Shown: in pieces, positions 4,800-61,233 of the stretch | Layout of the letters: the number at the start of each line of letters is the position of its first letter | Numbering within the stretch: position 1 is the first letter of the stretch | Assembly (NCBI GenBank): GCA_019751875.1 | Contig: JAIEMV010000003.1 | Coordinates: forward strand, 124,001 to 188,000 | Length of the DNA stretch: 64,000 nucleotides | Source: Hyphomicrobium sp. | GTDB taxonomy: Bacteria; Pseudomonadota; Alphaproteobacteria; Rhizobiales; Hyphomicrobiaceae | Direction of reading: 5' to 3' | Notes under the pieces: model-generated | The model's database searches: none | What the model was told of the DNA's origin: nothing | Seen by the model: only the letters and a program-made list of their open reading frames with translations | Program-made: the position numbers and the translations under genes

Positions 4800-4828
4800 A
4801 GTATAGATATCACAATGCGTTGTTACAA
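4800..4828 (-). promoter_or_regulatory. Putative sigma70-type promoter upstream of fae
   Basis: Minus strand TTGTAA - 17 nt - TATACT; predicts a ~225-nt leader. Confidence 0.4.
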
Positions 4829-4871
4829 CTTCGCGCGTTTCTTTGCAGAACGGGTCGCGGGCCAATTGCCG

Positions 4872-5777
4872 TTAATTGGGGTTTTTTGGCTCCGCAGTGA
4901 TGCAATCGCCAATGGCATTGACGAGCATTGCGGCGAAAGCGCTGGCGCACATGAGATCGGCGAGCGACCCGGGATTTGCACCCCACGACTTTAATTCCGC
5001 ATCAAGATCCAGAAGGGTTACGCGGTTTTCTCGTTTTGCAATTTCAGATGCGAATTTGAGTTCAAGTGTCGCGACTGTTTCGGCGGCGCGGGCCATGACG
5101 CGGTGCGCCAGTGCGGGCCCGTGTTTGCGAACGATGTGGGTATCGGGGCGTTCGGAAAGGCGGCGCAGGAAGAGGGCCGCAAGCGCGTCTTCGGGCGCGG
5201 CGCCGGATGCGATGTCTTCGGTCAAGGTGCGGGCGTTTGCGAGAATGGTTGCGAAGCCCGTGGCGTATTCTTGAGCGATCATGTCGCGCGGGGCGGCGGC
5301 GCGCATGGCGTCGAGGAGCGTCCAATCTGCGGGGGGTTCGGCGCGAACATCGCCGGCATCGTCTGACCCGAGGCCGGCGGGGTTGGCCATGGCAATCGCT
5401 TTATAGGCCGCGCGGGCGTCGTTGTGATCGAGAGCTGCGAGGACGGCGTGCAGGCTGTCGGCGAGAGATGTGCTCTCCGTGCCGTGTTCGGCTGCTGCCG
5501 CGAGGGGGGCGCAGAGCAAGACAATGCCGAGGTTGGTGTTCGTCGCGACCGCGGCGAAGGTGGCCTCGACGGCTTTGAAGATGCGATCTCCCACTGACAG
5601 GGCGGGATCGGCAATGAAAGGGGCAGATACGGTCGCGCTCAGGTCGAAGTCGGCGACCGTCATGCGGTGGCCATCGGCGAAGATGTGGACGTTGCCGGGT
5701 TTGAGTGTGCGCACTTCGAGGCGGCAGGCGGCGACATAGGCCTCCGCAATGGCGTTACGCGGTCGCGCGGCGATCAT
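4872..5777 (-). CDS. Triphosphoribosyl-dephospho-CoA synthase-like protein (CitG/MdcB family) of the H4MPT cluster
   Basis: AYVAACRLEVRTLKPGNVHIFADGHRM… and late SWGANPGSLADLMCASAFAAML are CitG-family-like. Confidence 0.75.
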   Translation of the reverse strand: MIAARPRNAIAEAYVAACRLEVRTLKPGNVHIFADGHRMTVADFDLSATVSAPFIADPALSVGDRIFKAVEATFAAVATNTNLGIVLLCAPLAAAAEHGTESTSLADSLHAVLAALDHNDARAAYKAIAMANPAGLGSDDAGDVRAEPPADWTLLDAMRAAAPRDMIAQEYATGFATILANARTLTEDIASGAAPEDALAALFLRRLSERPDTHIVRKHGPALAHRVMARAAETVATLELKFASEIAKRENRVTLLDLDAELKSWGANPGSLADLMCASAFAAMLVNAIGDCITAEPKNPN

Positions 5778-6721
5778 GCGTCGGCTTTGTGTGTCAGGGC
5801 TGCAAGGAAATCGTCGGCCAATGTCCAGGCGATGTTGACGTCCGTGACGCTTTGCAAGCCTTTCCAGGCGGGGTTGGAATTGATCTCGAGGACCATGAGC
5901 CTCCCGCCGTCGTCGCGGATGAGATCGACGCCGGCGTAGTCGGCACCGATCACGCGGGCGGCTTCGAGGGCGAGATTAGTCATCTCGGAATCCGTTTCGA
6001 TCGGATGTGGCTTGGCGCCCTGGTGGACATTGGTGATCCAGGTCTGGCCGACACGGGCCATCGCAGCCAGAACCCGGCCGCGCGAGACGAACAGGCGCCA
6101 ATCCTCGAACCGGGTGTCGGCGTTGCCGCGCAGGTAGCGCTGCACATAATAAACGTCGCCCATTTCGGAGGGTTCGGGAAGCTGATCGGGTGTTTCGATG
6201 CGTCGGACGCCGTTGCCCTGGCTGCCGAACAGCGGCTTCACGACGATGGGCCGGCCGGCTTGATCATGCGCGAATTTGCGGGCGGTCTCGATGCCTTCGG
6301 CGGCGCGTGTCAGCGGGACGGGCAGGCCGGCCATTTGGAACAGGAACGTGGCCGTCGATTTGTCGACACAGCGTTCGATCACGCGGGCGTCATTCCACAC
6401 GCGCACGCCGCTTTCGCGCAACGCATGCAGGATGCCGAGGCGGAGCGTGATCTGTTCGAGGCTGCCGGTGGACACGGAGCGGACGAAGGCGCCGTCGGGC
6501 AGGTCGCCATCGAAGCCAGGAATATGGATGCCGGACGGCAGCCGCGTGTCGAAAGCGCAGAACTTGAGGCACGTGGTGACGACCTGCGCGCCGCGCGCCT
6601 GGAGTGCTTCGCGCAGCCGCCGTGCATGCCAATCCCCGCCACCGTCCTCGACGAAGAGGACGATGCGCGGTCCCCGCGACGCGGGGCAGCGCGCGGTGAT
6701 GGAGAACGGCGGCGTGGTCAT
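5774..6721 (-). CDS. RimK-like ATP-grasp ligase (candidate H4MPT/methylofuran glutamate ligase)
   Basis: ATP-grasp motifs (RPIVVKPLFGSQGNGV, YAGVDLIRDDGGRLMVLEINSNPAWKGL); 4-bp overlap with the downstream gene. Confidence 0.8.
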   Translation of the reverse strand: MTTPPFSITARCPASRGPRIVLFVEDGGGDWHARRLREALQARGAQVVTTCLKFCAFDTRLPSGIHIPGFDGDLPDGAFVRSVSTGSLEQITLRLGILHALRESGVRVWNDARVIERCVDKSTATFLFQMAGLPVPLTRAAEGIETARKFAHDQAGRPIVVKPLFGSQGNGVRRIETPDQLPEPSEMGDVYYVQRYLRGNADTRFEDWRLFVSRGRVLAAMARVGQTWITNVHQGAKPHPIETDSEMTNLALEAARVIGADYAGVDLIRDDGGRLMVLEINSNPAWKGLQSVTDVNIAWTLADDFLAALTHKADA

Positions 6722-6732
6722 GGCGCTCTGCT

Positions 6733-7704
6733 TTACTTGAAGCTCGCCTCGACAATTTCGGGCGCGAGTTTGCCGGTCTGGAAGGATGTGCCGGTGTCGA
6801 GGTTCGAGACGGTCACGAGGGCGGGCGAGAAGAGCATGGCATCGATTTTGTAGAAGTCGCCGCCGACTTCGGCGAAGGTTTCGGCGAACGGCTTGCCATA
6901 GGATGAGGATGTGTTCGACGGCAGCGCGTCGGCGAGCTTCTTCGCGTCAGCGTCGGTGCCCTTCACGAACAGCTGGATGCGGCCGCCATAGATGATGGCG
7001 TCGTTCGTGCGGCCCATGGCCTTGACGAAGTCGGGGATCGGCGGGGCGAGTGGGGCGACGCCATAGCCGTCAATAATGTTTTCCAGCGGGAAATGCAGGG
7101 CGTGGGCCTTGTGGAGCGAGACTTCGAGCACGCGGGCGGCGATTTGGACGGTGCCGGCGAGGCTGCCGGTCGGCGCGTAGAGGATCGTGAGGTTGGCGGG
7201 TGCGATCCCGCATGCAGCGGCGACGTTGGCGGCCACGGACGACGGCGGGGCTTTGTCGCCTTCGATCACGAGCGCGCCTTTGCTGTGATGATCGACGTAG
7301 CCGAGTTCCTTGTAGAGTTCCTCGACGCGAGAGAGCGCGCGGGCGGGGCCGGAACCGAGCGCGAAGAAGCCGCTGGCATCTTCGGTGATCGTCCAGCCGG
7401 CGTACTGGCTGGCGAGGCAGGCGATGACCGGGTTCGACGAGTGGACGACGACGCCGAGGGGCCAGTTGGCGAGGCCCGACGATGATGTGATCTGCACGGT
7501 GCCGAAGCCGCCCATGCAGACCTCGCCCAGCAGACGACCGGCTTCGAGGCCGCCGGGCACATTGGCGCCAAGATCAACGAGGCGCTCACCGTTCTGGCCG
7601 GTAGAAACGGCGCAGCGAAGGGCGGCCGCGTTCGTGACGATCTGTTCGACAATGTGCGATGCGCGTGCGTTGACGCTCGGCGCCTGATTGAAATGCATGG
7701 TCAT
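6733..7704 (-). CDS. mch: Methenyltetrahydromethanopterin cyclohydrolase
   Basis: Mch-like sequence throughout ([16 protein letters not shown]…[17 protein letters not shown]). Confidence 0.93.
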
Positions 7705-8873
7705 ATCCTGACGTTTCCTTCCCGTTTGAAGCCTTCATACACGAGTTCAGCCAGTGCGGATAAGCGCTCGCGGCAAAGGCTTTCCGCCTCGTGGCTGGTT
7801 GACGCGGTGGCGGTGGCGGTGGCGAGCGGTTGGCCGCGCGCGATCTGTGCGCCCGGAGCGGGGCGATCGGCGGCCCATTCCGGCCAGGCGATGGTTGGGA
7901 CGGTGATGGCGCCGTTGTCGGCATAAAGGTAGGCGGCGGCAGCAGCGCGCGGGGGTTGCCAGCGGCCCTTCAGGAGTTTGGCGGGGTTTTCGCCGGCACA
8001 GGCGGCGACGTGGGCGGCAAAGAGGCTGCCCGAGGCATCGTCGAAAATGTCGAGTGTGGCGCCGGGGCGGGGGTTTGCTTCTAGAAGCAACGGTTCGCCG
8101 TCATGGAGAACGAAGTCGAGCGAGAGGAGTCCGGAGAGGCCGAACTCGGAAATCACGGTCAGCGCGGTGTCAACGAGGCGGGTTTCGAGATCTTCGTCAA
8201 CGGTGATGCCGGAGACCGCGCCGCCGTAGCGGTAGGGTCGGCGTTTGCGCGGAGACGACCACTGGCGGGAGAGCGCGACCGCGGTGCCGCTTGGGCTGGC
8301 AATCGCGAGGACCGAGATGGCCTCGCCTTTCTGTTCGCGCTGGAAGTAGCGGCGGGGGTCGGGTTCGAAAGTGGCAGGGCAGTGGTGGATGTGAAGTCCG
8401 CCGCTGCCTCCGATGCGCTTCATCAGCCACCCTTCGTGATTGGCGGGTGGCGTGACTTGTGTTTCAGGATGGCGAATGCCGAGCCGGGCGAGCGTACCGA
8501 AAAACTCCGTCGGGTCTTTGACGCGGCGGATCGTGTCCGCGTTGTTGCCGATCAGGTGATAACGTTCACCGAGTGCTGCGACGAGCTTCGGATTGCATTC
8601 GAAGCCGCCGCCGAGCACGAGGCCGATGGGTGGCGCGGGCGCGTTGGCGACGAGGCTGTCAAGCGCGGTGATGAGCGGTCGCTTGATGAAGCCGACCTGG
8701 ACGCGGGCTGGCAGGCAGATCAATTCGTGGGCGGCGGCACGCGTGTCGAGATCACCGAAGCAATCGACGACGAGGGGGATCAATCCGGCGCGGCGTGCCG
8801 ACTGCGCGAGTGCGCGTCCGGAGAACGCGGCGATGAGGACGCATTGCGCCTCTGTGGGATCTGGGGTTGCCAT
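7701..8873 (-). CDS. ATP-grasp domain protein of the H4MPT cluster
   Basis: [43 protein letters not shown]; start ATG 8873 preferred because the track start lies inside a palindromic element. Confidence 0.8.
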
Positions 8874-8879
8874 GTTTCT

Positions 8880-8992
8880 CCCTCTCCCCATGGCTCTTGC
8901 AATGGGGAGAGGGTTGAGGTGAAGGGCAGCATCCGCAATTGAGCTAGCGGCTGCCCCTCATCCCAACCCTCTCACCGCGTGCGGGGAGAGGG
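8880..8992. repeat. Composite palindromic intergenic element
   Basis: Hairpin CCCTCTCCCCAT/ATGGGGAGAGGG (8880-8891/8902-8913), central arms TTGAGGTGAAGGGCAGC (8914-8930) / GCTGCCCCTCATCCCAA (8950-8966), second hairpin CCCTCTC…GAGAGGG ending ~8992. Confidence 0.8.
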
Positions 8993-9006
8993 GATCAAGA
9001 CGGCGA

Positions 9007-9915
9007 TCAGACGAGGCCGGTGAGTTCCTTGGCCTTGCTGTAGGCGTGGCGGAAGTCGAGCGAGAGGGCCTTGTCGGATTCGAGCATCTGTTTGAAGAGG
9101 CCGGATTCGGTCTTGTACTTGATGTCGCCGATGGCGAGCGGACCGACGCCAAGTATGTTCGTGTCGCCGAGCGGCGCGCCGTCCATGAACAGGTCCATGC
9201 CTTCGACGCCGGCGGGTGGGACCGCGTTGACGTCGGCGATGGCGAGCAGATTGGGCGCGGCCTTGAGCATCTCCTTGGAGACGACCTGCACGCCGGCAGC
9301 GGCGGCAGCGAAAATGACTTCGGCATTCTTGACGACTTCAGCGCGTTGTTCGGCGGTTTCACCGTTGACCGGCTCGAGGTCGACGCCGAAGCGTTCCTTG
9401 GAGACGGCGGCGCTCTTGATGACGCGATCGACGCCACGGTGGGCGACGAGCTGCACCTGGGCGCCTTCGAGCGCGGAAATGATCGAGGAGGCGAAGCCGA
9501 CGACGCCGGTGGCGCCGAACACCGCGACGCGCGTTCCCTTCCAGGAGCGGCCGAACTTCAGCTTCAGGACGCGCTCGACGCAGGCGACCATGGCGGCAGC
9601 GGTGGTGAAGGAGCCGGCGGGATCAGCGAACGTGGAGCACTCGAACGGGGGGACGAGGGCCTTCTTGGCGGCGTCCAGCATGTCGAGCGCCATGATGGCG
9701 TCCTTGCCGCCCATGAAGAAGCCGGTGCGCACACCGTAGTTCGGCGGGCGGGAGAAAATGGCGTCCTGGATCAGCGGCGTGACGTCCTGCACTTCGACGT
9801 TCGTGTAGGGGACGATGACCTTGTAGCCCGCGTCGGCGGCCATGTTCACGTCGAAGGGGCTGACGTGCTTGCGCGGGTCGAGCATGTGCAGGATGGGCGT
9901 CGCTTCTTGGGTCAT
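9007..9915 (-). CDS. mtdB: NAD(P)-dependent methylenetetrahydromethanopterin dehydrogenase
   Basis: ILHMLDPRKHVSPFDVNMAADAGY… and AVFGATGVVGFASSIISALEGA Rossmann motif; MtdA/MtdB family in H4MPT context. Confidence 0.9.
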   Translation of the reverse strand: MTQEATPILHMLDPRKHVSPFDVNMAADAGYKVIVPYTNVEVQDVTPLIQDAIFSRPPNYGVRTGFFMGGKDAIMALDMLDAAKKALVPPFECSTFADPAGSFTTAAAMVACVERVLKLKFGRSWKGTRVAVFGATGVVGFASSIISALEGAQVQLVAHRGVDRVIKSAAVSKERFGVDLEPVNGETAEQRAEVVKNAEVIFAAAAAGVQVVSKEMLKAAPNLLAIADVNAVPPAGVEGMDLFMDGAPLGDTNILGVGPLAIGDIKYKTESGLFKQMLESDKALSLDFRHAYSKAKELTGLV

Positions 9916-9948
9916 GTTCTTGGTCTCCCCGGTGAGTACGAAAGCGGG

Positions 9949-10899
9949 TCAAGCGGGGCCGATGACGGCGCCGCTGTTGCGACCCTGCACAATTTTCAAA
10001 TCGAGCCCCGTCGCTTTAGCCTCTTCGACTAAAGATGAATAGAGACGGTGCGCCGCAGCCTCGTTGTCCACGAAGGCAAAGCCCGTCGGGCCCCACGAAC
10101 TCTGTCCGAGACCTGTCGCGCCGGCCTCGCCCAGGCGGCGGACCATGTGGCCGACAGCCGGGCTCGACCACGGCGCACCACCTTGAGCGGCGGAGAAATG
10201 GTTACCGACGATGGTTTGGATTTCGCTCAGGGCCGCGCCGAAGCAGTCGATGTCTTTCTCGACAATCCCGGGAAGGAGCCGCATCAGCGTCAGGCGACAG
10301 AGATGGCCGGCGAGGGCGTCGGGGAATTCGGGCAGAGCCCGGAAGGCGGCGGTTTCTTTTTCGCCATGGACCCCGATGTCGCGCGGGTCGAGGACGAGAA
10401 TGGCGCGCCAGTCGGCGGGGAAATCGAGGCGCACCACGGTCGGCGGCGGATGGCCGGATGTGCCGCGGCCGCCATCGACGATGAAGCCGCCGCGTTCAAA
10501 GGCCGTGATGCCGATAGCGGAACGGGCGCCGCGTTCGACAACCTCGCCAAGCATGCTGGCGGAAGCTTCGTTGCCGGAGAGCTTCAGCACGGCGGCGCCG
10601 ATGGCGAGCGCCAACTGGGTCCCCGAACCGAGGCCGGCGTGGGCGGGGATCGCGCTCTGCACGTCGACTTCGTATGTGTTGTCAGCGGCGAAGAGGCCGG
10701 CAAAGCGGCGCAGCGCCTTTTCCGCCCGCTCGGCTTCCGCTCCGCTGGCGCGAAATTCAGGAGCCGGGCGAACGGTGAGCGTGGTTGCGGGTTGATCCAC
10801 GGCCAAGCCGATCGAGCCGTATTTACGGCCGAGCGAACCGTTGAGATCGACGAAGCCCAAATGCAGGCGGGCAGGTGCGCTGACGGTGATAGCCCGCAT
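9949..10899 (-). CDS. Beta-ribofuranosylaminobenzene 5'-phosphate synthase (GHMP family)
   Basis: APARLHLGFVDLNGSLGRKYGSIGLAVDQP; PAHAGLGSGTQLALAIGAA. Confidence 0.88.
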   Translation of the reverse strand: MRAITVSAPARLHLGFVDLNGSLGRKYGSIGLAVDQPATTLTVRPAPEFRASGAEAERAEKALRRFAGLFAADNTYEVDVQSAIPAHAGLGSGTQLALAIGAAVLKLSGNEASASMLGEVVERGARSAIGITAFERGGFIVDGGRGTSGHPPPTVVRLDFPADWRAILVLDPRDIGVHGEKETAAFRALPEFPDALAGHLCRLTLMRLLPGIVEKDIDCFGAALSEIQTIVGNHFSAAQGGAPWSSPAVGHMVRRLGEAGATGLGQSSWGPTGFAFVDNEAAAHRLYSSLVEEAKATGLDLKIVQGRNSGAVIGPA

Positions 10900-11029
10900 C
10901 GGTCGAGCAGCCGTTGTTCGGGGTTGGCGCGATGGGTACGAAGCGCCTCCGCGCAGGGCGGGGAGAGCGATTGAAGCCGGACCCCAGTCGATCTACGGTG
11001 ACGCCCGAAAAGTCAATCCCTGGAACCGA

Positions 11030-13390: not shown

Positions 13391-13610
13391 ATTGCACTTC
13401 CTCCCGAGGGTGGCACGGTAACCATTCGACGGTCCGTGGAGCCACTTTTGCGACTCTAGCTTTTCTTTTGCCAAAGTCCACCTGAACCCCAGGTGAATTA
13501 GGCCCCAGGGTCCGGTGAAACATCTACGCCCTCACGAGCGAAGAAGATTTCAGCCGGCGCGTCTTTTACACTGACAACCAAAGCTCTGCCAGTGGGTTCC
13601 CTCGCAATCT

Positions 13611-14771
13611 TCAGGCGCCTCCGACGGTCACCTTGACGGCGCCGACGCGGCGATAGACGAATTCGGGCGGGGTGGAGTGGCTTTCGACCTCGGCGACCTT
13701 GGCCCACTCCTCATGCATCGGCGACAGCGAGCAGGCCGGGTCCGTGTTGGCGGCATCGCCGGTAAGCGCGAAGGCCTGGCAGCGGCAGCCGCCGAAATCG
13801 ATCTCCTTGCGCGGGCACGAGCGGCAGGGCTCCTTCATCCATTCGGTTCCGCGATACTTGTTGAAGGCGTCGCCATTGAGCCAGATGTCGGCGAGGGGGC
13901 GATCCTTGACGTTGTCGAACTGGAGATGCGTGATCGATTCGGCGGCGTGGCAGGGCAGCACGCGGCCCGACGGGGTGACGTTCAGGATCTGCTTGGCCCA
14001 ACCGCCCATGCACGGCTTGGGGAACTTAGCGTAATAGTCGGGCACGACCATGTCGATGACGATGATGCCCTTGTACTTCTCGCGCGCCTCTTCGACTTGC
14101 TTGGCAGCGGTCATGAAGCTCTCGCGGGTGGGCATGAGCGAGGAGCGGTTGAGTAGCGCCCAGGCGTAATACTGGACGTGCGCGATTTCGATACGACCGG
14201 CGCCGCATTCGATGGCGAATTCGATCATCCGCGGCACGTTGTGAATGTTCTGGCGATGGATCGGTGCGTTGATCGTCAACGCCATGCCGGCTTCTTTCGC
14301 CCACTGGGAGACTTCGATCTTCTTGGCGAGGCCGCCCTTGTAGGCGGAGATGCGGTCGGCGTTTTCAGGATCGACGTCCTGGATGGAGAGCTGCACGTGA
14401 TCGAGGCCGATCTCGGCGAGCTTCATCATGCGATCGCGGGTGAGCGTCACACCGGCGGTGATGAGGTTGGTGTAGAGGCCCGCCTTGACGGCGGCATCGA
14501 GGATTTCCTCAAGGTCCTTACGCGCCGTGGGCTCGCCGCCCGAGAGATGGACCTGGAGGATGCCGAGTTCGCCGGCCTGACGCATCACGTCCTGCCATTC
14601 AGCCGTCGTGAGCTCGGTGTTGACGCGCTCAAGATCGGTCGGGTTGGAGCAGTACGGGCACTGCAATGGGCAGCGATGAGTCAACTCGCACAGCATGCCG
14701 ACGGGCGCGCGGGCGCACGATGGATCGACGGCGGCAATGGCGCTCGTCTCGACGGGGGTGACCTCGTTCAT
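13611..14771 (-). CDS. pqqE: PQQ biosynthesis radical SAM protein PqqE
   Basis: ELTHRCPLQCPYCSNP radical SAM motif; C-terminal cysteine-rich SPASM region. Confidence 0.97.
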   Translation of the reverse strand: MNEVTPVETSAIAAVDPSCARAPVGMLCELTHRCPLQCPYCSNPTDLERVNTELTTAEWQDVMRQAGELGILQVHLSGGEPTARKDLEEILDAAVKAGLYTNLITAGVTLTRDRMMKLAEIGLDHVQLSIQDVDPENADRISAYKGGLAKKIEVSQWAKEAGMALTINAPIHRQNIHNVPRMIEFAIECGAGRIEIAHVQYYAWALLNRSSLMPTRESFMTAAKQVEEAREKYKGIIVIDMVVPDYYAKFPKPCMGGWAKQILNVTPSGRVLPCHAAESITHLQFDNVKDRPLADIWLNGDAFNKYRGTEWMKEPCRSCPRKEIDFGGCRCQAFALTGDAANTDPACSLSPMHEEWAKVAEVESHSTPPEFVYRRVGAVKVTVGGA

Positions 14772-14799
14772 GGCTTCGCTCCGTTCACGTTCTGCCGGC

Positions 14800-15141
14800 T
14801 CAAGTTTTGGCCGCTTGATTTTGGGCCGGTTCGCCGGCGTTCAACACGCCTTTGTCGGCGAGGTCCTGCAGCATATCGACGATGTCTTTCAGGATGAGAT
14901 CGGCCGGGGCCTTGTATTCATCCGCAAGACTGTCTGCGATGTCGGAGACCGAACGTTTGCCATCGCATTTCTGCAGCACGGCAACGGCGATCTCGTCGGG
15001 ATTGAAGACGCGTTCGGGAGCCAGAAGAATCCAGCGCCCGCGGCCGGCGTCATGGCGCATCTTCACGAAGCGCGGCAGGCTCGGCCGGCAATCGCCAGTG
15101 ATCAGGATTCGTTCGCGTTTGGCGTATTGACCGATGCTCAT
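14800..15141 (-). CDS. pqqD: PQQ biosynthesis peptide chaperone PqqD
   Basis: RHDAGRGRWILLAPERVFNPDEIAVAVLQKCDG; ATGA overlap with pqqC. Confidence 0.93.
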   Translation of the reverse strand: MSIGQYAKRERILITGDCRPSLPRFVKMRHDAGRGRWILLAPERVFNPDEIAVAVLQKCDGKRSVSDIADSLADEYKAPADLILKDIVDMLQDLADKGVLNAGEPAQNQAAKT

Positions 15142-15911
15142 GCCTGTAGATCCTCCGGGCGCCACGCGCCGGGCGGCACGTTGCCGTTGATGTAGGCGTG
15201 GTAGAGCGCATCGAGCTGAACCCAGAGCACGTTGCACTTGAACCGGACGGCGTCGACGCAAGCTTCCTGTTCGGCGCGGGTGGCGGCATGCTGCTTGATG
15301 TAGTTGAGCGCAAAGTCAGCGTCGCGCGGGGCCTGGACGAGGCGCTGCTTGAAGTAGGCCATCACACGATCGTCGATGAAGTCGTAGCCTTCCAGCATCC
15401 CGGAAATGCGCTCCTTGTGGATCTTCGGCGCAAAAAGTTCAGTAAGCGAAGAAGCCACGGCGATGGTGAGCGGCTGTTCGCGTACGAAGGTGACATAGGC
15501 TTCGACCGCGAAGCGGGTGGCCGGCAGGGCGCCACGCATCGACTGAACATACTCGCGATCGAGGCCGAGGGCGTCGGTGAGGACGAGCCAGCGTTCGATG
15601 CCGCCGGCGTCGTTTTCATAGCCATCGTGCTCGAGAACGCGGTGCATCCATTCGCGGCGCAGTTCGCGGTCGTACGTGCGGCTGACGAGCGCGGCGTCTT
15701 TGCGGGGAACGGCCGACTGGTAGCAATAGCGGTTGAGGGCCCAAGCGGCGACCTGGCTTTTCTTCAGCTTGCCGCCGTGGAGAAGCTTATGAAAGGGGTG
15801 CTTGTCGTGGTAGCGCTCGGCGCCGACAGCCTGGATCGCGGCTTCGAATTCCTCATGCGACCAGAGCTTGTTATCGGTGCGGGCGGTGCCTTTCAGGTGA
15901 ATATCGGTCAT
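15138..15911 (-). CDS. pqqC: Pyrroloquinoline-quinone synthase PqqC
   Basis: YHDKHPFHKLLHGGKLKKSQVAAWALNRYCYQSAVPRKDA. Confidence 0.97.
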   Translation of the reverse strand: MTDIHLKGTARTDNKLWSHEEFEAAIQAVGAERYHDKHPFHKLLHGGKLKKSQVAAWALNRYCYQSAVPRKDAALVSRTYDRELRREWMHRVLEHDGYENDAGGIERWLVLTDALGLDREYVQSMRGALPATRFAVEAYVTFVREQPLTIAVASSLTELFAPKIHKERISGMLEGYDFIDDRVMAYFKQRLVQAPRDADFALNYIKQHAATRAEQEACVDAVRFKCNVLWVQLDALYHAYINGNVPPGAWRPEDLQA

Positions 15912-16840
15912 ATCCTGATCTCCATTCCGTCGAACCCGACCTCCCAGCCGGCATTTTGAACCACCTTACGCTCCGGGGAATTGTCGTCGAGCACGGGGTT
16001 CGAGTTGTTGATGTGGACGTAGATCTTGCGCTTTACATTCAGGTCCTTGAACGCAGCTATCGAGCCGTTGGACCCGGAAATTGAGATATGTCCCATGCGG
16101 GCGCCGGTCTTGTTCAGCAGGCCCTGCCGGATCATTTCGTCATCGGTGTAGAGCGTCCCGTCGAAAAAGACGAGGGGCGCGTCCTTAAGGCGCTCAGCCA
16201 GCGGCGGATCGACCTCGGCACAGCCTGGAACATAATAGAAAAAGCGGCCGGTTGCGGTTTCGGTGACCTTGAGGCCGATGGTGTCGCCTTCGCGGCTGCC
16301 GAACGACTTCTTGTCGGACGTGTCTTCTAAGAAAAGAGCAATCTTGCCCGGAACTGCAAAGGCTTCGACGGTGACGCCGAGATTATCGCCGTGGTCTTCG
16401 ATCGCGATTGCCTGGTCGAGCGGTAATTCCAGTCGCGGGACGATCTGCGGATTGCAAACGTTGAAGACCGAATTGGCATTGATCGTCTTCAGAACGCGAT
16501 CTGATCCGTAAATGGTGAAGGGCGTGCCTTCGCGCAAGTTGATAAGGCCGATAATGTGATCGACGTCGGCATTGGTGACGATGACGGCCTTGATCGGAGA
16601 ATTGCGAAGAGGGCCGTTTGGGTCGGGCCAGAGTTCAGGATTGTTCGCGATCTGCTCGCGCAAGTCGGGCGAGCAATTGAGAAGGACCCAACGCTTGCCA
16701 TCGGCCGAGACCGCGAGGGACGACTGGGTCCGCGCGGCAAACCCCGGCTTGCGGGCGCGCGCGCTCGCACTCATTGGGCCATTGCAATTCCATTGCGGGA
16801 ACCCGCCACCGGCGGACGCCCCGAGCACTTTGATAAGCAT
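15908..16840 (-). CDS. pqqB: PQQ biosynthesis protein PqqB
   Basis: MLIKVLGASAGGGFPQWNCNGPMSASAR…; start ATG 16840. Confidence 0.96.
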   Translation of the reverse strand: MLIKVLGASAGGGFPQWNCNGPMSASARARKPGFAARTQSSLAVSADGKRWVLLNCSPDLREQIANNPELWPDPNGPLRNSPIKAVIVTNADVDHIIGLINLREGTPFTIYGSDRVLKTINANSVFNVCNPQIVPRLELPLDQAIAIEDHGDNLGVTVEAFAVPGKIALFLEDTSDKKSFGSREGDTIGLKVTETATGRFFYYVPGCAEVDPPLAERLKDAPLVFFDGTLYTDDEMIRQGLLNKTGARMGHISISGSNGSIAAFKDLNVKRKIYVHINNSNPVLDDNSPERKVVQNAGWEVGFDGMEIRI

Positions 16841-16988
16841 GATGATCCGACGTTCTGGAAAGGGCCGCCCCCGCAATCCCCTCGCGTGAGAATCGGGCGC
16901 GCAAACGACGACGGCGGCCGGGCTTGCCGGGCCGCCGTGTCAGATCGGGCCTGCGCATCCCAACGGGCGCACGCCGCACATCCTAAAT

Positions 16989-17078
16989 TCAGATGACGTC
17001 GATTTCGGCCGGCAGGTACGACGTGACTTCCAGGCCGACTTCCTGTTCGCGTACGGCGGGCTTGGTCCAGGTCTTCAT
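16989..17078 (-). CDS. pqqA: PQQ precursor peptide PqqA (29 aa)
   Basis: MKTWTKPAVREQEVGLEVTSYLPAEIDVI* with the Glu-x3-Tyr precursor motif (E-VTS-Y), RBS GGAGGA, directly upstream of pqqB; below the ORF-track size cutoff. Confidence 0.95.
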   Translation of the reverse strand: MKTWTKPAVREQEVGLEVTSYLPAEIDVI

Positions 17079-17615
17079 GATGATGTCCTCCAAAGACAGC
17101 GGTCTCGGTTTGCGTTTTCGTCTTATCGTCGAGCACCCCTCCCGAGGGCGTTCCGCGGCATCCGGGTCTCTTGCTCGGTTACTTCAGACATCGGCTTCGC
17201 ACCGATCTCGATTGGTTCTAAAGACCACATCCGGGTGGGCCGCTCAAGTCACTTGGAGTCACGAAACCGTGTGACCTAACAGAACTTTAGCTGTCGATAA
17301 GGCAAGCTTTACGCAAGGGCGAGGCCGCGCGTCGAGGTCCTTGGCCTTGTCCTCCCAGTTGTGGGCACGAAATGGAATCGATGCCCGCAAACTGGATGTT
17401 TATTGGAATGAAATTCTACCAATCCCCTCTGAATCTTTTCACTTGAAGCATGGTTTTGCTGTGATATGTTCCTTTGCCTCGGCGGACGTGATGCGGCGCG
17501 AGGGGTGGTACGCTGCCGCCGGTCACATTTTCAAGCTGGATTTCCGGAATTGGCCGTCGCAGGACAGCGTCCAAGCGGCGGCGCCGGCCGTAGCCACCGC
17601 CTCGGAGAGGTAGCA

Positions 17616-56077: not shown

Positions 56078-56238
56078 ATAGGTCAGGTTTGGGGTTGTTT
56101 GTCGAGGCTGTCGACACAGTTCATTCAGGCTGAGGGCTATGACGGGGCGCTGTCGAACGGCACCTGAAGAACTTCAACGGTCATGACCGAACTGGCAACC
56201 GCGGGTTTGGGCACGCGTTGACGAGGATCGACACGAAC

Positions 56239-57276
56239 ATGATCGTGCTGAGGCAGGCCCGTTTTCGCGCCGTGACCATCTTGATGCTCGGCATGATGGT
56301 CCTGGTACCGCTGACCGGGGCCGATGCCGGCGTGCTGCAGACGGTGCGCGAGCGCGGACACGTCGTCTGCGGGGTGTCAGATCGCTTGCCGGGGTTGTCG
56401 GCCGTCGATCGCAACGGACGCTGGAGCGGTCTCGAAATCGAGTTCTGCGGGGCACTCGCAGCTGCCGTCTTCGGCGAGCGGAACCACGTCAAATTTCGAG
56501 CGGTGAGTGCGGGTGAGGGTGCGCGCGCGCTTGCCGGTGGCGAGATCGATGTGCTTCTCGGGGGGACTGTGTTGAGCTTGTCACGCGAGGCCGAATTGGG
56601 GATGCGCTCCGCCGGAGTCCTTTTCTATGAGGGCCAGGGCCTGTTGGTTCCGCGCTCGTTTGGTGTGTCGAGTGTGCTCGAAGTGTCGGGGGCGTCCATT
56701 TGCGTGCAGCGGGGAACAGCGTCGGAGAAGGCTGTGGCGGCGTTTTTCGAGGCCCGGCAAATGCGCTTTCAACTTGTTCCCAGCGATGAATGGGCCGACG
56801 CGGTCAAGGCCTATAGGGAGGGTACCTGCACGTTGCTGACCGGGGATCTTGCAGCGCTCGCTCATGAGCGCACCACGATGCCCAAGCCCAGCGAGCATTT
56901 CATCCTTCCAGAACTCGTGGCGCAGGAGCAAACGGGGCCATTCGTGCGTCAAGGGGACGATCCATGGCTGACAGTGGTCCGTTGGACGCTGCTGGCCTTG
57001 ATCGAGGCGGAACAGCTGGGGCTGTCGAGTGACGCGGTTCGTGATCTTCCCGAGGCACCCGAACCGGCGGTGCGGCGATTTCTGGGCGTCGATACAGGGC
57101 TCGGGGCATCGCTCGGATTGCAGCCGAACTGGACCGAAAGGGTAATTGCGAGTGTCGGGAACTATGGGGAAATGTTCAACCGGACGCTTGGGGAGCAGTC
57201 GCGGCTGAATTTGCCGCGGGGGGCAAACAATCTTTGGAGCGGTGGCGGGCTCATGATCGCGCCTCAGTTCCGCTAG
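56239..57276 (+). CDS. Amino-acid ABC transporter-type periplasmic substrate-binding protein
   Basis: VLQTVRERGHVVCGVSDRLPGLSAVDRNGRWSGLEIEFCGALAAAVFG. Confidence 0.85.
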   Translation: MIVLRQARFRAVTILMLGMMVLVPLTGADAGVLQTVRERGHVVCGVSDRLPGLSAVDRNGRWSGLEIEFCGALAAAVFGERNHVKFRAVSAGEGARALAGGEIDVLLGGTVLSLSREAELGMRSAGVLFYEGQGLLVPRSFGVSSVLEVSGASICVQRGTASEKAVAAFFEARQMRFQLVPSDEWADAVKAYREGTCTLLTGDLAALAHERTTMPKPSEHFILPELVAQEQTGPFVRQGDDPWLTVVRWTLLALIEAEQLGLSSDAVRDLPEAPEPAVRRFLGVDTGLGASLGLQPNWTERVIASVGNYGEMFNRTLGEQSRLNLPRGANNLWSGGGLMIAPQFR

Positions 57277-57323: not shown

Positions 57324-58034
57324 ATGGATATCCGCGTTTCGTTAGATGGAGCAGCCGGTATGCTGCTGCTCAGTCTGCCGTGGTTGCTGCTGGCTCTGGC
57401 GGCCTGGCGAGCAACGAACGTGGCGGGGCCCTCGGACGATGTGGGGCGGCGGGACAGTCGGGGCGAGAAGACCACCAAGGATCGCGCGATTGTTGGCAGT
57501 CCTGCTGGCGCGGTTGAGCAGCCCGGCGAGGGCAAGGCGGTGGGCGTGTTGGCAGTGACCGCGTCGAACTGGGACGGCAGCCACCTCGCGTCCCATGATG
57601 CTGCTGGTGCTGAGCCTGTTTTCCAAGCGGAGGCTGTCGCTCCTCCGACCCTCTCGCCGCAAGAGCAGGAGGATGCTCTCGTCCTGGCGGTTGCAGCCGC
57701 GAAGGCGGAACGCGATGATGCCGCTTTGTCTCGGGATAGTGTGCTTTTGGCGAAGTTGTTGATCGCGCGATCGGCGCGCTCGGAGGCGGCGGCGCTGTTG
57801 CAGTCTGCAGCGCTGGTTGCACGACGGGCAAAGTTGCCAGTGGTGCACGCACAGGCTCGTATCGAGCTTGCCGATCTGGCGCGCAGCGAAGGCGATATGA
57901 CGTCCGCTTGTGAGCACTGGCAGATGGCGAAGTTGATGTTCCATGAAACCGGGCGTCGCGTGGATCAGGACCGGATAGCGGATCTCATGCGTCAGAACCG
58001 TTGTCCGACGGACTGGATACTCACCAATTTCTGA
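57324..58034 (+). CDS. Hypothetical protein, N-terminal TM segment and TPR-like helical C-terminus
   Basis: MLLLSLPWLLLALAAW; AAALLQSAALVARRAKLPVVHAQARIELADLARSEGDMTSACEHWQMAKLMF. Confidence 0.7.
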   Translation: MDIRVSLDGAAGMLLLSLPWLLLALAAWRATNVAGPSDDVGRRDSRGEKTTKDRAIVGSPAGAVEQPGEGKAVGVLAVTASNWDGSHLASHDAAGAEPVFQAEAVAPPTLSPQEQEDALVLAVAAAKAERDDAALSRDSVLLAKLLIARSARSEAAALLQSAALVARRAKLPVVHAQARIELADLARSEGDMTSACEHWQMAKLMFHETGRRVDQDRIADLMRQNRCPTDWILTNF

Positions 58035-58037
58035 CGA

Positions 58038-59042
58038 TCACTGCGATAGGACTTCGATCTCGGTGCTCTGGCCGTCCTGGACGGTGAAGTCGCGGCGGAA
58101 TGCGCGGTTCTGGTTGCGTGCGACGACCGTGTATGTTCCGGGTGCCAGTGTGTGGGCCGGCAGAGCGCCGACGCTTTCCTTTACAATCCCGCCCTCAGGC
58201 GTTTGGATCGTCCATTGCGTATCGGGGAGCGCCTCGCCGCCGGCGCGTTCAACAAGCTTGAAGGAAACCTTCGCGAAGGTGTGCTGGATTGAAGCTTCCG
58301 TCAGCTTGCCGGCCTCCACGGTGACGTCGCTCCGCACGATCGCATTGGCGTCGCCGTAGGTGGAGACGATGTGATAGATGCCGGCATTCAGGCGCACGAC
58401 GAGGCCCGGCTTAGAGACTGAGAGGATCACGCGGCGGTCATCGGCCTGGTCGCGGTCGGTCAGGATCGAGTATGTGACTGAGCCGGGTGGTGCGGGCTTG
58501 TTGCCGATCATCGCGCTGACGCGCAAGCCGCCGGCGTTGAGAACGAACTTCTCCACTTTTGGAGCCGATACCGGTGCGTCGGTCACGGCGATCTTGCGGG
58601 TCAGATTTGCACGGCCGAAGGCAGCGTTGATGATGTAGTTCCCGGGTTTCAACGCGACGAGAGGGGTGGCGTTGCGTTCGGTGAGAAGAAGTTTGCCGCG
58701 ACGTTCGGCCAGATTCGTCTCTTCATACACGCGCCAGACGAGACCTTGCTCAATGCGCTGTCCGTCTTCGGTTAGGAGCGCCATGAGCTGGATCGGCTGG
58801 CTTCCGCCTTCGTTGGTTTCGCCGGTGCGAGGGACGACGGTGATATTGTCGGCTGGAGGCGTGGCTGCTGGCGGATCTCTCAGGTCCCATCCTTCGAGAG
58901 GAGAACCGGGAGGCGCGACTTGTGCCAAGGCGCTCGACACAGGCGCTGGGAGGGCGAGCAGGAGGCAAGCGATTACGCACGCGGTGAAGGCGGCGAATTT
59001 TTTGCGGGACGGTGGCACGGTTTTGCTGTCGAATTCAGACAT
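58038..59042 (-). CDS. Secreted protein of about three beta-sandwich-like repeat modules
   Basis: Signal-like N-terminus; recurring 'L.(P/A)G.Y.I…(G).…V…G…' modules; start probably ATG 59042. Confidence 0.75.
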   Translation of the reverse strand: MSEFDSKTVPPSRKKFAAFTACVIACLLLALPAPVSSALAQVAPPGSPLEGWDLRDPPAATPPADNITVVPRTGETNEGGSQPIQLMALLTEDGQRIEQGLVWRVYEETNLAERRGKLLLTERNATPLVALKPGNYIINAAFGRANLTRKIAVTDAPVSAPKVEKFVLNAGGLRVSAMIGNKPAPPGSVTYSILTDRDQADDRRVILSVSKPGLVVRLNAGIYHIVSTYGDANAIVRSDVTVEAGKLTEASIQHTFAKVSFKLVERAGGEALPDTQWTIQTPEGGIVKESVGALPAHTLAPGTYTVVARNQNRAFRRDFTVQDGQSTEIEVLSQ

Positions 59043-59130
59043 GGGGGCGGTGCGCTGTTGAGCCTGCTCTGATTGGTCGATCAACGATGGTCGAAGTGTG
59101 GCAGACGGCGGCGACGGTGCAGTTTGGCAG

Positions 59131-61083
59131 CTAGGGTGTGGTCATATCCACCGTCAGCTTCTCTCCGGCTTTGATGCTGATCGGTTTTTCAATTTCAGCG
59201 CCGCCGCCGTCGACCTGAACCAGGTAATCGCCGGGTGCGACGACGGTGCGGAAACCATCCCCGGCGCGGGAGCGCCAAACCACGCGGCCGGAGCGGTCAC
59301 GCAAGGCAGCCTGAGAGGCCGATCCGCCAATGCCTGTGAGCGTAATGTCTGCGGCATCGAGTTTGAGGTCAGTGGAAACGTCGGCTCCTGGAGCGAGATC
59401 GACGATTCGGCTCGAACGAACGTTGGACATGCCGATCTGGGCGTCGATTCGATAGCGCCCTGCGCCTAGAACAAAGACAGGTGCTGCTGCGGTGCTCTGG
59501 CCGACAAGGCGCTTTTCGCCGGTCTCTTCGAAGATGCGGGTCACCACGGCCCGACCGGACTGGGCGGCCGCGTCGGTCAGCGTCGGCTTCACCGTGAGTT
59601 TGCCGACATCGAGCACGAGAGTACGCTTGACGCTATCGCCCGATGAAATGGCGACTTGTTCGCGATGTTCGCCGACTCCGTGGCGGGCGGTGACGTAGTA
59701 GGTACCCGCCTGGAGTGTAAAGGTGGCAACGGGCGCGGTCGAGCGGGCGACTTCTCGGCGACCTTGCGGCGCTGCCGGATCATCAGCGAAGACGAGATAG
59801 AGCACGCGATCGAGGGGCGGACCATTGGCAAAAGCCGTTGCAGTCAATTCAAGGCGTCCGGTGTCGAGCACGAGATTGGTGCGCGCGCTGGCGCCGGCTG
59901 GAACATCAACCGTCTGCCGCGTCCGCGCAAAGCCGTCGGCGACTTCAACGACGTACTTGCCGGACGGGACGACAAGATCAGCGGTTGCCTCACGGCCGAG
60001 CCACAGCACCGTACCGGGTGTGGCCTTATCCGTGGCGGCGGTGGAGATCGTCATCACCGGCGCGCTCAATTGATCTCCCTGACGGCTGGCGGTGGCGGCG
60101 ACTTCGATGCGGCCCCCGTCGAGCGTGAGGCGCTTCACCGTCGGGCCACTATCGCCGACCTCGACATCGAAACTTCGCTGGATCAAGCTGTGCGTGATGG
60201 AAACGGTATAGCGGCCGGGCGCGACGGTCTCGTTAATTTCGCGGCTCTTGCGTTCAACGAGTGGGGCCGCATCGGCGGGTTCCCCAGACTTGGTAATGCG
60301 CCAGTCGATCGCTGTGTCGATGGGACCGCCATTCTCCGACAGGGATGCGGAGAGACGCAGGCCGGGCGGACCTTTGGCGACGGCTGCGGGGGGCGGCACG
60401 ACGGCAGCCGACGTTGCGGCAACAGTCGCTGCAGGATCGAGACCAGCGGCCTCGAATATGCTTGTTAGAGCCGATGCAATGCCGGTCTGATTGGTGGCGT
60501 CGAATTGTAGGCCTTTGGTGGTTGCAGCGAGGCATTGCATTCGGTCGCGCTCCGGCTTGGGCAGACCGAGGCTCACCACATGGACTCGCAGACCCGGGTT
60601 CGTTTTGATGATGTCGGATGCTGCGGCGCAGACATCCTGGCCGCAATTGTCGGCATTGTCGTGGATGAGGATGATGTATCCGCCCGTGCCCCCGCCGATG
60701 GCTTTCGCACCTTCGCGAAGGGCTGTGGTGAGTGGGCCCTTGCCCTTGGGGTTGAGTTGATCGAGCGCGGCGATTGAGCCTTGCGAGCCGCCGGCCTCGA
60801 TGGGGGCGATGAGTTCCACGTCGCTGCAATCGCCTTTGCGGCGGTGGCCAAACGAGCCCAGACCGATGCGAGACTGGGCCGGGGCCACGAGTAGCCGCTC
60901 CCGCAGTAGGTCGCGCACGCCGTACAGTTTGGCGGTCTCGTCGCCCTCCATTTTGCCCCACATGGAGCCGGAGCCGTCGACGATGATCAGAACCGGCTGT
61001 GCGGGTTCGGCCACGGCCGGTTGGGCCAGTACGGCCGCGAACGTCGCCATTATCGTCATGCGCAAACGGCGGATGAAGGCCAC
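59131..61083 (-). CDS. Secreted vWA-domain protein with about five C-terminal repeat modules
   Basis: MIDAS motif VLIIVDGSGSMWGKM; C-terminal modules with PG.Y.V…AG..…L.LD.G.L…; start ambiguous (GTG 61083 or ATG 61059). Confidence 0.85.
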   Translation of the reverse strand: MAFIRRLRMTIMATFAAVLAQPAVAEPAQPVLIIVDGSGSMWGKMEGDETAKLYGVRDLLRERLLVAPAQSRIGLGSFGHRRKGDCSDVELIAPIEAGGSQGSIAALDQLNPKGKGPLTTALREGAKAIGGGTGGYIILIHDNADNCGQDVCAAASDIIKTNPGLRVHVVSLGLPKPERDRMQCLAATTKGLQFDATNQTGIASALTSIFEAAGLDPAATVAATSAAVVPPPAAVAKGPPGLRLSASLSENGGPIDTAIDWRITKSGEPADAAPLVERKSREINETVAPGRYTVSITHSLIQRSFDVEVGDSGPTVKRLTLDGGRIEVAATASRQGDQLSAPVMTISTAATDKATPGTVLWLGREATADLVVPSGKYVVEVADGFARTRQTVDVPAGASARTNLVLDTGRLELTATAFANGPPLDRVLYLVFADDPAAPQGRREVARSTAPVATFTLQAGTYYVTARHGVGEHREQVAISSGDSVKRTLVLDVGKLTVKPTLTDAAAQSGRAVVTRIFEETGEKRLVGQSTAAAPVFVLGAGRYRIDAQIGMSNVRSSRIVDLAPGADVSTDLKLDAADITLTGIGGSASQAALRDRSGRVVWRSRAGDGFRTVVAPGDYLVQVDGGGAEIEKPISIKAGEKLTVDMTTP

Positions 61084-61233
61084 GAGCGTAGATCTCCCAA
61101 CGACACGGCAACTGCGGCCGTGCGACAGCGAAGCAGTACATTATTGTACCAGAGGGCGGGTTGGGATAGCGAGGGTGCCGACGGGGAGTTTCACTGCCCC
61201 TGCAACTTTAGCATTCCATATGAGACGAGGCCC

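Follow-up and report, generated by a model that had tools for sequence, protein, structure and literature searches.

The combination of a vWA domain with transthyretin (TTR)/CnaB-like modules is already known in general. It is found in RrgA, SpaC and Porphyromonas gingivalis Mfa5, in which, as in protein A described here, a vWA domain is joined to CnaB-like beta-sandwich modules. Unlike these, A and its partner B have no sortase or fimbrial machinery, display no conserved isopeptide triad that we could see, and belong to a Gram-negative periplasmic context. A proteobacterial family annotated as "VWA domain-containing protein" (DASGSMWGQI...; L209–L214, L216–L224) also resembles A: related modules, in varying number, come after a vWA, and its members L209–L214 possess the same four-Cys vWA pattern. 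It differs from the A-B pair in usually being a single gene, with a canonical MIDAS (metal site) Thr and a module number that varies, and no adjacent vWA-less partner was seen in the short stretches inspected. PEGA (PF08308) and CarboxypepD_reg (PF13620), of the transthyretin-like clan, share with A and B the module fold and a weak profile similarity.

The Rgs polar-growth proteins of Sinorhizobium meliloti (RgsB, D, G and H) are periplasmic, are of unassigned function, and several are conserved in Rhizobiales (PMC7327166). B is likewise probably periplasmic, and several Rgs proteins match it in being Rhizobiales-wide. Identification of B as RgsB was rejected because the gene context does not fit: locus tags place rgsC close to rgsB, and by eye the S. 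medicae nitroreductase-B-thrS neighbourhood (L185) is without an obvious M15 peptidase gene like rgsC. Searches of the open-access (PMC) literature on the A-B pair, its domains and its homologs turned up no paper that describes the pair or B, and the nearly order-wide B family is unrecognised.

Genes A and B and their neighbours

The window, that is, the whole stretch of 64,000 nucleotides of Hyphomicrobium sp. DNA analysed, carries A and B on one strand, 88 bp apart (Table 1). Both ORFs lie exactly where a preliminary description had placed them, with the stop codon of B ending at 58038. A scan of the gap between them for promoters and terminators gave no informative signal. The nitroreductase ORF in the program-made list overlaps A, on our reading of the sequence, only because its N-terminus is drawn too long; a start at the likely ATG, near 61233, would leave a divergent intergenic region between nitroreductase and A.

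Table 1. Features of the A-B locus, in coordinates of the window
Feature	Position	Strand	Remarks
Orphan family-3 solute-binding protein (SBP)	56218–57276	+	Positional neighbour in the window's family
TPR-like, membrane-anchored protein	57324–58034	+	Convergent to B; alignment, relatives search
B, exported, three TTR/CnaB-like modules, no vWA	58038–59042	-	334 aa, ATG at 59042
Modules B1–B3	58041–58805	-	aa 80–334; alignments, AF2
A, exported, vWA and five TTR/CnaB-like modules	59131–61083	-	650 aa, GTG start
Module A5	59131–59361	-	aa 575–650; B3 counterpart; hhalign
Module A4	59356–59616	-	aa 490–576; B2 counterpart; hhalign
Modules A2 and A3	59608–60120	-	aa 322–492; no positional counterpart in B; hhalign
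Module A1	60115–60372	-	aa 238–323; B1 counterpart; hhalign
vWA domain of A	60436–61002	-	aa 28–216; AF2, Foldseek, alignment

Protein A begins with a Sec-type signal (MAFIRRLRMTIMATFAAVLAQPAVA), followed by a vWA domain bearing DGSGSMWG and a module region (aa 238–650). The signal-like N-terminus and the vWA with DGSGS had been noticed earlier, and for the vWA both the AF2 model (mean pLDDT of A 88.5) and Foldseek, which matches this domain to solved vWA/I-domains, agree. The VWA_2 profile (PF13519, cut-off 27) scores A at 23.2, under the cut-off, and three relatives in which B itself has a vWA (vWA-B) at 31.7–39.3. A sequence search of the PDB revealed no close relative, the best match being the archaeal ArnB vWA (8s05), to A. 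In one genome assembled as a single contig (G026, C1:2645514–2647380) A is split over two overlapping frames with B intact, which is likely a frameshift or a split gene.

B starts with a signal-like segment that ends in ALA-QV. A disordered linker extends from there to about residue 80 and leads into the three beta modules, for which the AF2 model has a pLDDT of 93–98 across most of residues 81–334. The stretch of B1–B3 best conserved across the order is the RLNAGIYHIVSTYGDANAIVRSDVTVEAGKLTEA core, where the conserved sequence reads RLNAGIYHIVSTYGDANA...VEAGKLTEA; this suggests a conserved partner surface on modules 2–3.

The preliminary description had also pointed to a convergent TPR-like protein and a solute-binding protein. 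The first association is real, since strong matches to the TPR-like gene occur only with A: of 100 relatives 34 have one, in nearly every case next to A-B, and none of the A-less genomes does, unrelated weak helical-repeat matches aside. The SBP, on the other hand, is conserved in position only, and only within the window's family, where it often stands beside the TPR-like gene; no permease or ATPase gene adjoins it. The TPR-like protein combines a short TM segment, with Arg/Lys after it, and a helical-repeat region; it also has a conserved Cys, and its tail, CPTDW(V/I)L, is nearly invariant. Positive charges behind the TM segment suggest that its C-terminus is cytoplasmic, which renders a direct periplasmic partnership with A-B doubtful. 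Elsewhere in the window we noted by eye PQQ-biosynthesis-like (about 13600–17300) and methanopterin/formaldehyde-oxidation-like (4800–11000) genes, and since these are present the host is likely a methylotroph.

A shared module and a tandem duplication

From the family alignments we made one profile for each of the eight modules and, as a control, one for the vWA, and compared every pair by hhalign. Modules of A matched those of B mostly with probabilities of 97–99.6%, the weakest pairs (72–87%) all involving B2, and every comparison of a module with the vWA control gave less than 1%. The "about five" and "about three" comparable modules first described are exactly five in A and three in B; all eight are homologous and about 85 aa in length. 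In the AF2 models all of them fold as transthyretin/CnaB-like beta-sandwiches, and the possibility raised at the outset, that the two proteins might have unrelated folds, was not borne out. Foldseek relates both to 6fwv (E-values of 4e-10 for B and 3e-18 for A), with other pilins matched too; the whole-chain TM-scores are low, as expected for multi-domain chains.

Membership of a named family did not follow. PEGA scores 19.2 on A, under its cut-off of 20.8, and CarboxypepD_reg scores 15.4 on B against a cut-off of 32.3. With nothing in Pfam or NCBIfam above cut-off for B, the preliminary statement that the proteins have no obvious named function stands.

The best cross matches are collinear: B1 corresponds to A1 [99.6%, 1.1e-23], B2 to A4 [98.7%, 4.5e-16] and B3 to A5 [99.3%, 1.2e-20]. 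A2 and A3, mutually the closest among the A modules, are extra in A. Direct BLASTP comparison of A with B gave an E-value of 1e-07 at 24% identity. Based upon this collinear correspondence A and B are tandem paralogues.

Distribution and history of the vWA domain

Among 100 relatives representing 65 genera, A-like proteins are present in 92 and B in 96, the latter in 62 of the 65 genera. B is therefore a nearly order-wide family, recognised by no curated family model tested. Named relatives bearing it include Hyphomicrobium, Methyloceanibacter, Sinorhizobium, Mesorhizobium, Shinella, Phyllobacterium and Nitratireductor. Class-wide, strong matches to B were confined to the same order; those in other orders were weaker, and several were to proteins with a vWA and modules. 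A-like proteins of the latter kind were also found in other Proteobacteria in a sample of the phylum. Rhizobium-type and other genomes have a second, non-adjacent vWA and TTR-like-module protein of about 560–690 aa (L216–L224); two of these were read, and they have the MIDAS Thr, in GKTPL or GKTPM. These non-adjacent proteins are apparently the wider parental family.

A failure of the two genes to co-occur would have spoken against the pairing first proposed. By our own tally from match coordinates, 56 of the 60 genomes from the window's family have A directly upstream of B, and the other four are accounted for by cut contigs, a fragmentary sequence, or a genome 76% complete that has neither gene; the same arrangement occurs in several further families. 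The usual order in the window's family is nitroreductase, A-B, TPR-like, SBP3 and PLP enzyme, with individual genes absent in some genomes. Outside it B adjoins a nitroreductase gene, a thrS gene, or sits between both.

Counts of architectures, in which some genomes are represented twice, gave 56 A-type ORFs with a vWA and five modules, 116 B ORFs with three modules and 25 B ORFs, from other Hyphomicrobiales families, with an N-terminal vWA and three modules. Families fall into four states: A with a vWA-less B (that of the window), A with vWA-B, vWA-B alone, and vWA-less B alone, where "alone" means that no A lies beside B, some Rhizobium-type genomes having a more distant vWA and module protein elsewhere. 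The last is the Rhizobiaceae/Phyllobacteriaceae type, including Sinorhizobium, Mesorhizobium and Phyllobacterium. Two A homologs, L103 (5066–7153) and L102 (5092–7008), one of them in a reduced genome of 1.8 Mb, have modules and no detectable vWA, so that A, too, has apparently lost the domain.

In the vWA tree the B-type domains cluster apart from the A-type (support 83/84, not starred), with one fast-evolving A (L090) falling among the B-type, and the distant vWA and module proteins lie outside both groups. Because of this separation the A/B duplication probably predates the sampled Hyphomicrobiales families. In the B-module tree, a quick one, we count no fewer than 11 changes in the presence of the vWA, and well-supported branches force at least six of them; both trees are short, with long branches, and by themselves cannot tell loss from gain. 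We infer loss as the direction, and hence a vWA repeatedly lost from B, because the B vWAs cluster together and not with different A's.

The metal site was read from the vWA alignment as D36-S38-S40-116-D142. In the A of the window D36, S38, S40 and D142 are present and the Thr position is Gly116, so that the MIDAS is incomplete. In raw tallies, which are inflated by phylogenetic relatedness among loci, A reads DSSGD at 38 loci of the window's clade (the window counted), all beside a vWA-less B; at loci with a vWA in both proteins A is DSSTD in eight of nine and B departs from it in seven of nine (e.g. DSRAG, GSSAD, ESSAT); and at loci without A 13 vWAs of B are readable, of which 8 are DSSTD. 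Since every A read in the window's clade has Gly for Thr, its binding there is probably constitutive or independent of metal, and not switched in the classical way through Thr. Cys 86, 147, 152 and 184 are invariant in A and mostly kept also in domains with a broken metal site, and on this basis the vWA fold appears to be retained.

Possible role and cellular location

We suggest that a single ancestral exported protein, comprising a vWA and TTR-like modules, was duplicated in tandem to give A and B. A would have retained the vWA and five modules, and B the three that correspond to A1, A4 and A5, dropping its own vWA in the window's clade. Both would act in the periplasm, B as the core scaffold or adaptor whose modules 2–3 bind an envelope partner present across the order. 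A may join B through like modules and provide in trans the protein-binding vWA that, in other lineages, is part of B itself (in cis). To this explanation as a whole, tandem paralogues with B as periplasmic scaffold and A as vWA partner in trans, we assign a probability of about 0.5. What the computation itself shows is the homology, fold, architecture and collinearity of the two proteins, the vWA being present in some B lineages and absent from others repeatedly, the co-occurrence of the genes and the MIDAS states. A vWA in B is not needed for its core role, because in Rhizobiaceae and Phyllobacteriaceae B persists without either the domain or an adjacent A. The trade-off between vWA-B and A is imperfect, some lineages having both and some neither.

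Tandem paralogues need not interact, and contact between A and B is something we infer. It is quite conceivable, if less probable, that the two are independent, still adjacent after duplication and now serving different envelope partners. Many families retain B with no A next to it, which would fit this, as would the better conservation of B between genera (about 50–58% identity, versus about 35–42% for A, in the better matches). Against it, A directly precedes B in essentially every genome of the window's family, an arrangement also kept in several others, and the MIDAS state of A tracks the presence of a vWA in B, though this is confounded by phylogeny.

The preliminary description had favoured an envelope or surface assembly. 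The closely spaced genes on one strand are in keeping with that description; "surface" is not supported, there being no sorting or anchor signals. Neither protein has a conserved lipobox, an LPXTG/sortase motif, or a C-terminal anchor or TM segment, and the C-termini end ...LTVDMTTP and ...STEIEVLSQ. The hydrophobic stretch of B does include VIAC, the Cys of which is not conserved in relatives, arguing against a lipoprotein. Because export signals occur without any such lipobox, motif or anchor, the simplest reading is that A and B are soluble periplasmic proteins, which we consider likelier than a surface assembly. One might have expected otherwise from the best Foldseek module matches, which are pilin and adhesin CnaB domains, and from the vWA and CnaB combination of RrgA and SpaC; A would then be a vWA tip on a CnaB-like stalk, as in these proteins and Mfa5, and B a shorter ancillary subunit of an adhesin or fimbria-like structure. 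With low whole-chain TM-scores, however, similarity to a single beta-sandwich fold says little. In addition there is no usher, no conserved Lys/Asn-Asp isopeptide pair at equivalent strands was apparent by eye in the module alignments, the neighbours of A and B are housekeeping genes (nitroreductase, thrS, nadK), and near order-wide conservation such as that of B is atypical of adhesins. A surface or pilus role is accordingly improbable. A cofactor or metal-insertion helper resembling MxaC/MxaL of methanol dehydrogenase maturation is highly improbable: the vWA proteins mxaL and mxaC are named among those with a part in the methanol oxidation of methylotrophs (PMC3615186), and methylotrophy and PQQ-type genes can be read in the window, but no mxa cluster in the stretch inspected includes A or B, no link to MxaC/MxaL was found, and B is kept in Sinorhizobium/Mesorhizobium-type rhizobia, which are not defined by methylotrophy.

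Returning to B as a periplasmic scaffold with A as its partner in trans, B is exported and conserved over almost the whole order, plant symbionts and methylotrophs included. More tentatively, B may found an unrecognised, near order-wide periplasmic scaffold of the Hyphomicrobiales, the vWA arm of which has repeatedly decayed or disappeared, or given way to the one on its tandem partner A. If true, nature would here provide a series of steps by which a metal-dependent binding domain moves from cis to trans and finally becomes dispensable, with the core retaining an important role in the envelope. All stages of vWA decay are on record in the A/B lineage, from an intact MIDAS through a missing Thr and a broken site with the Cys kept to the domain gone, and what the vWA adds thereby becomes directly testable in laboratory strains of Sinorhizobium or Hyphomicrobium.
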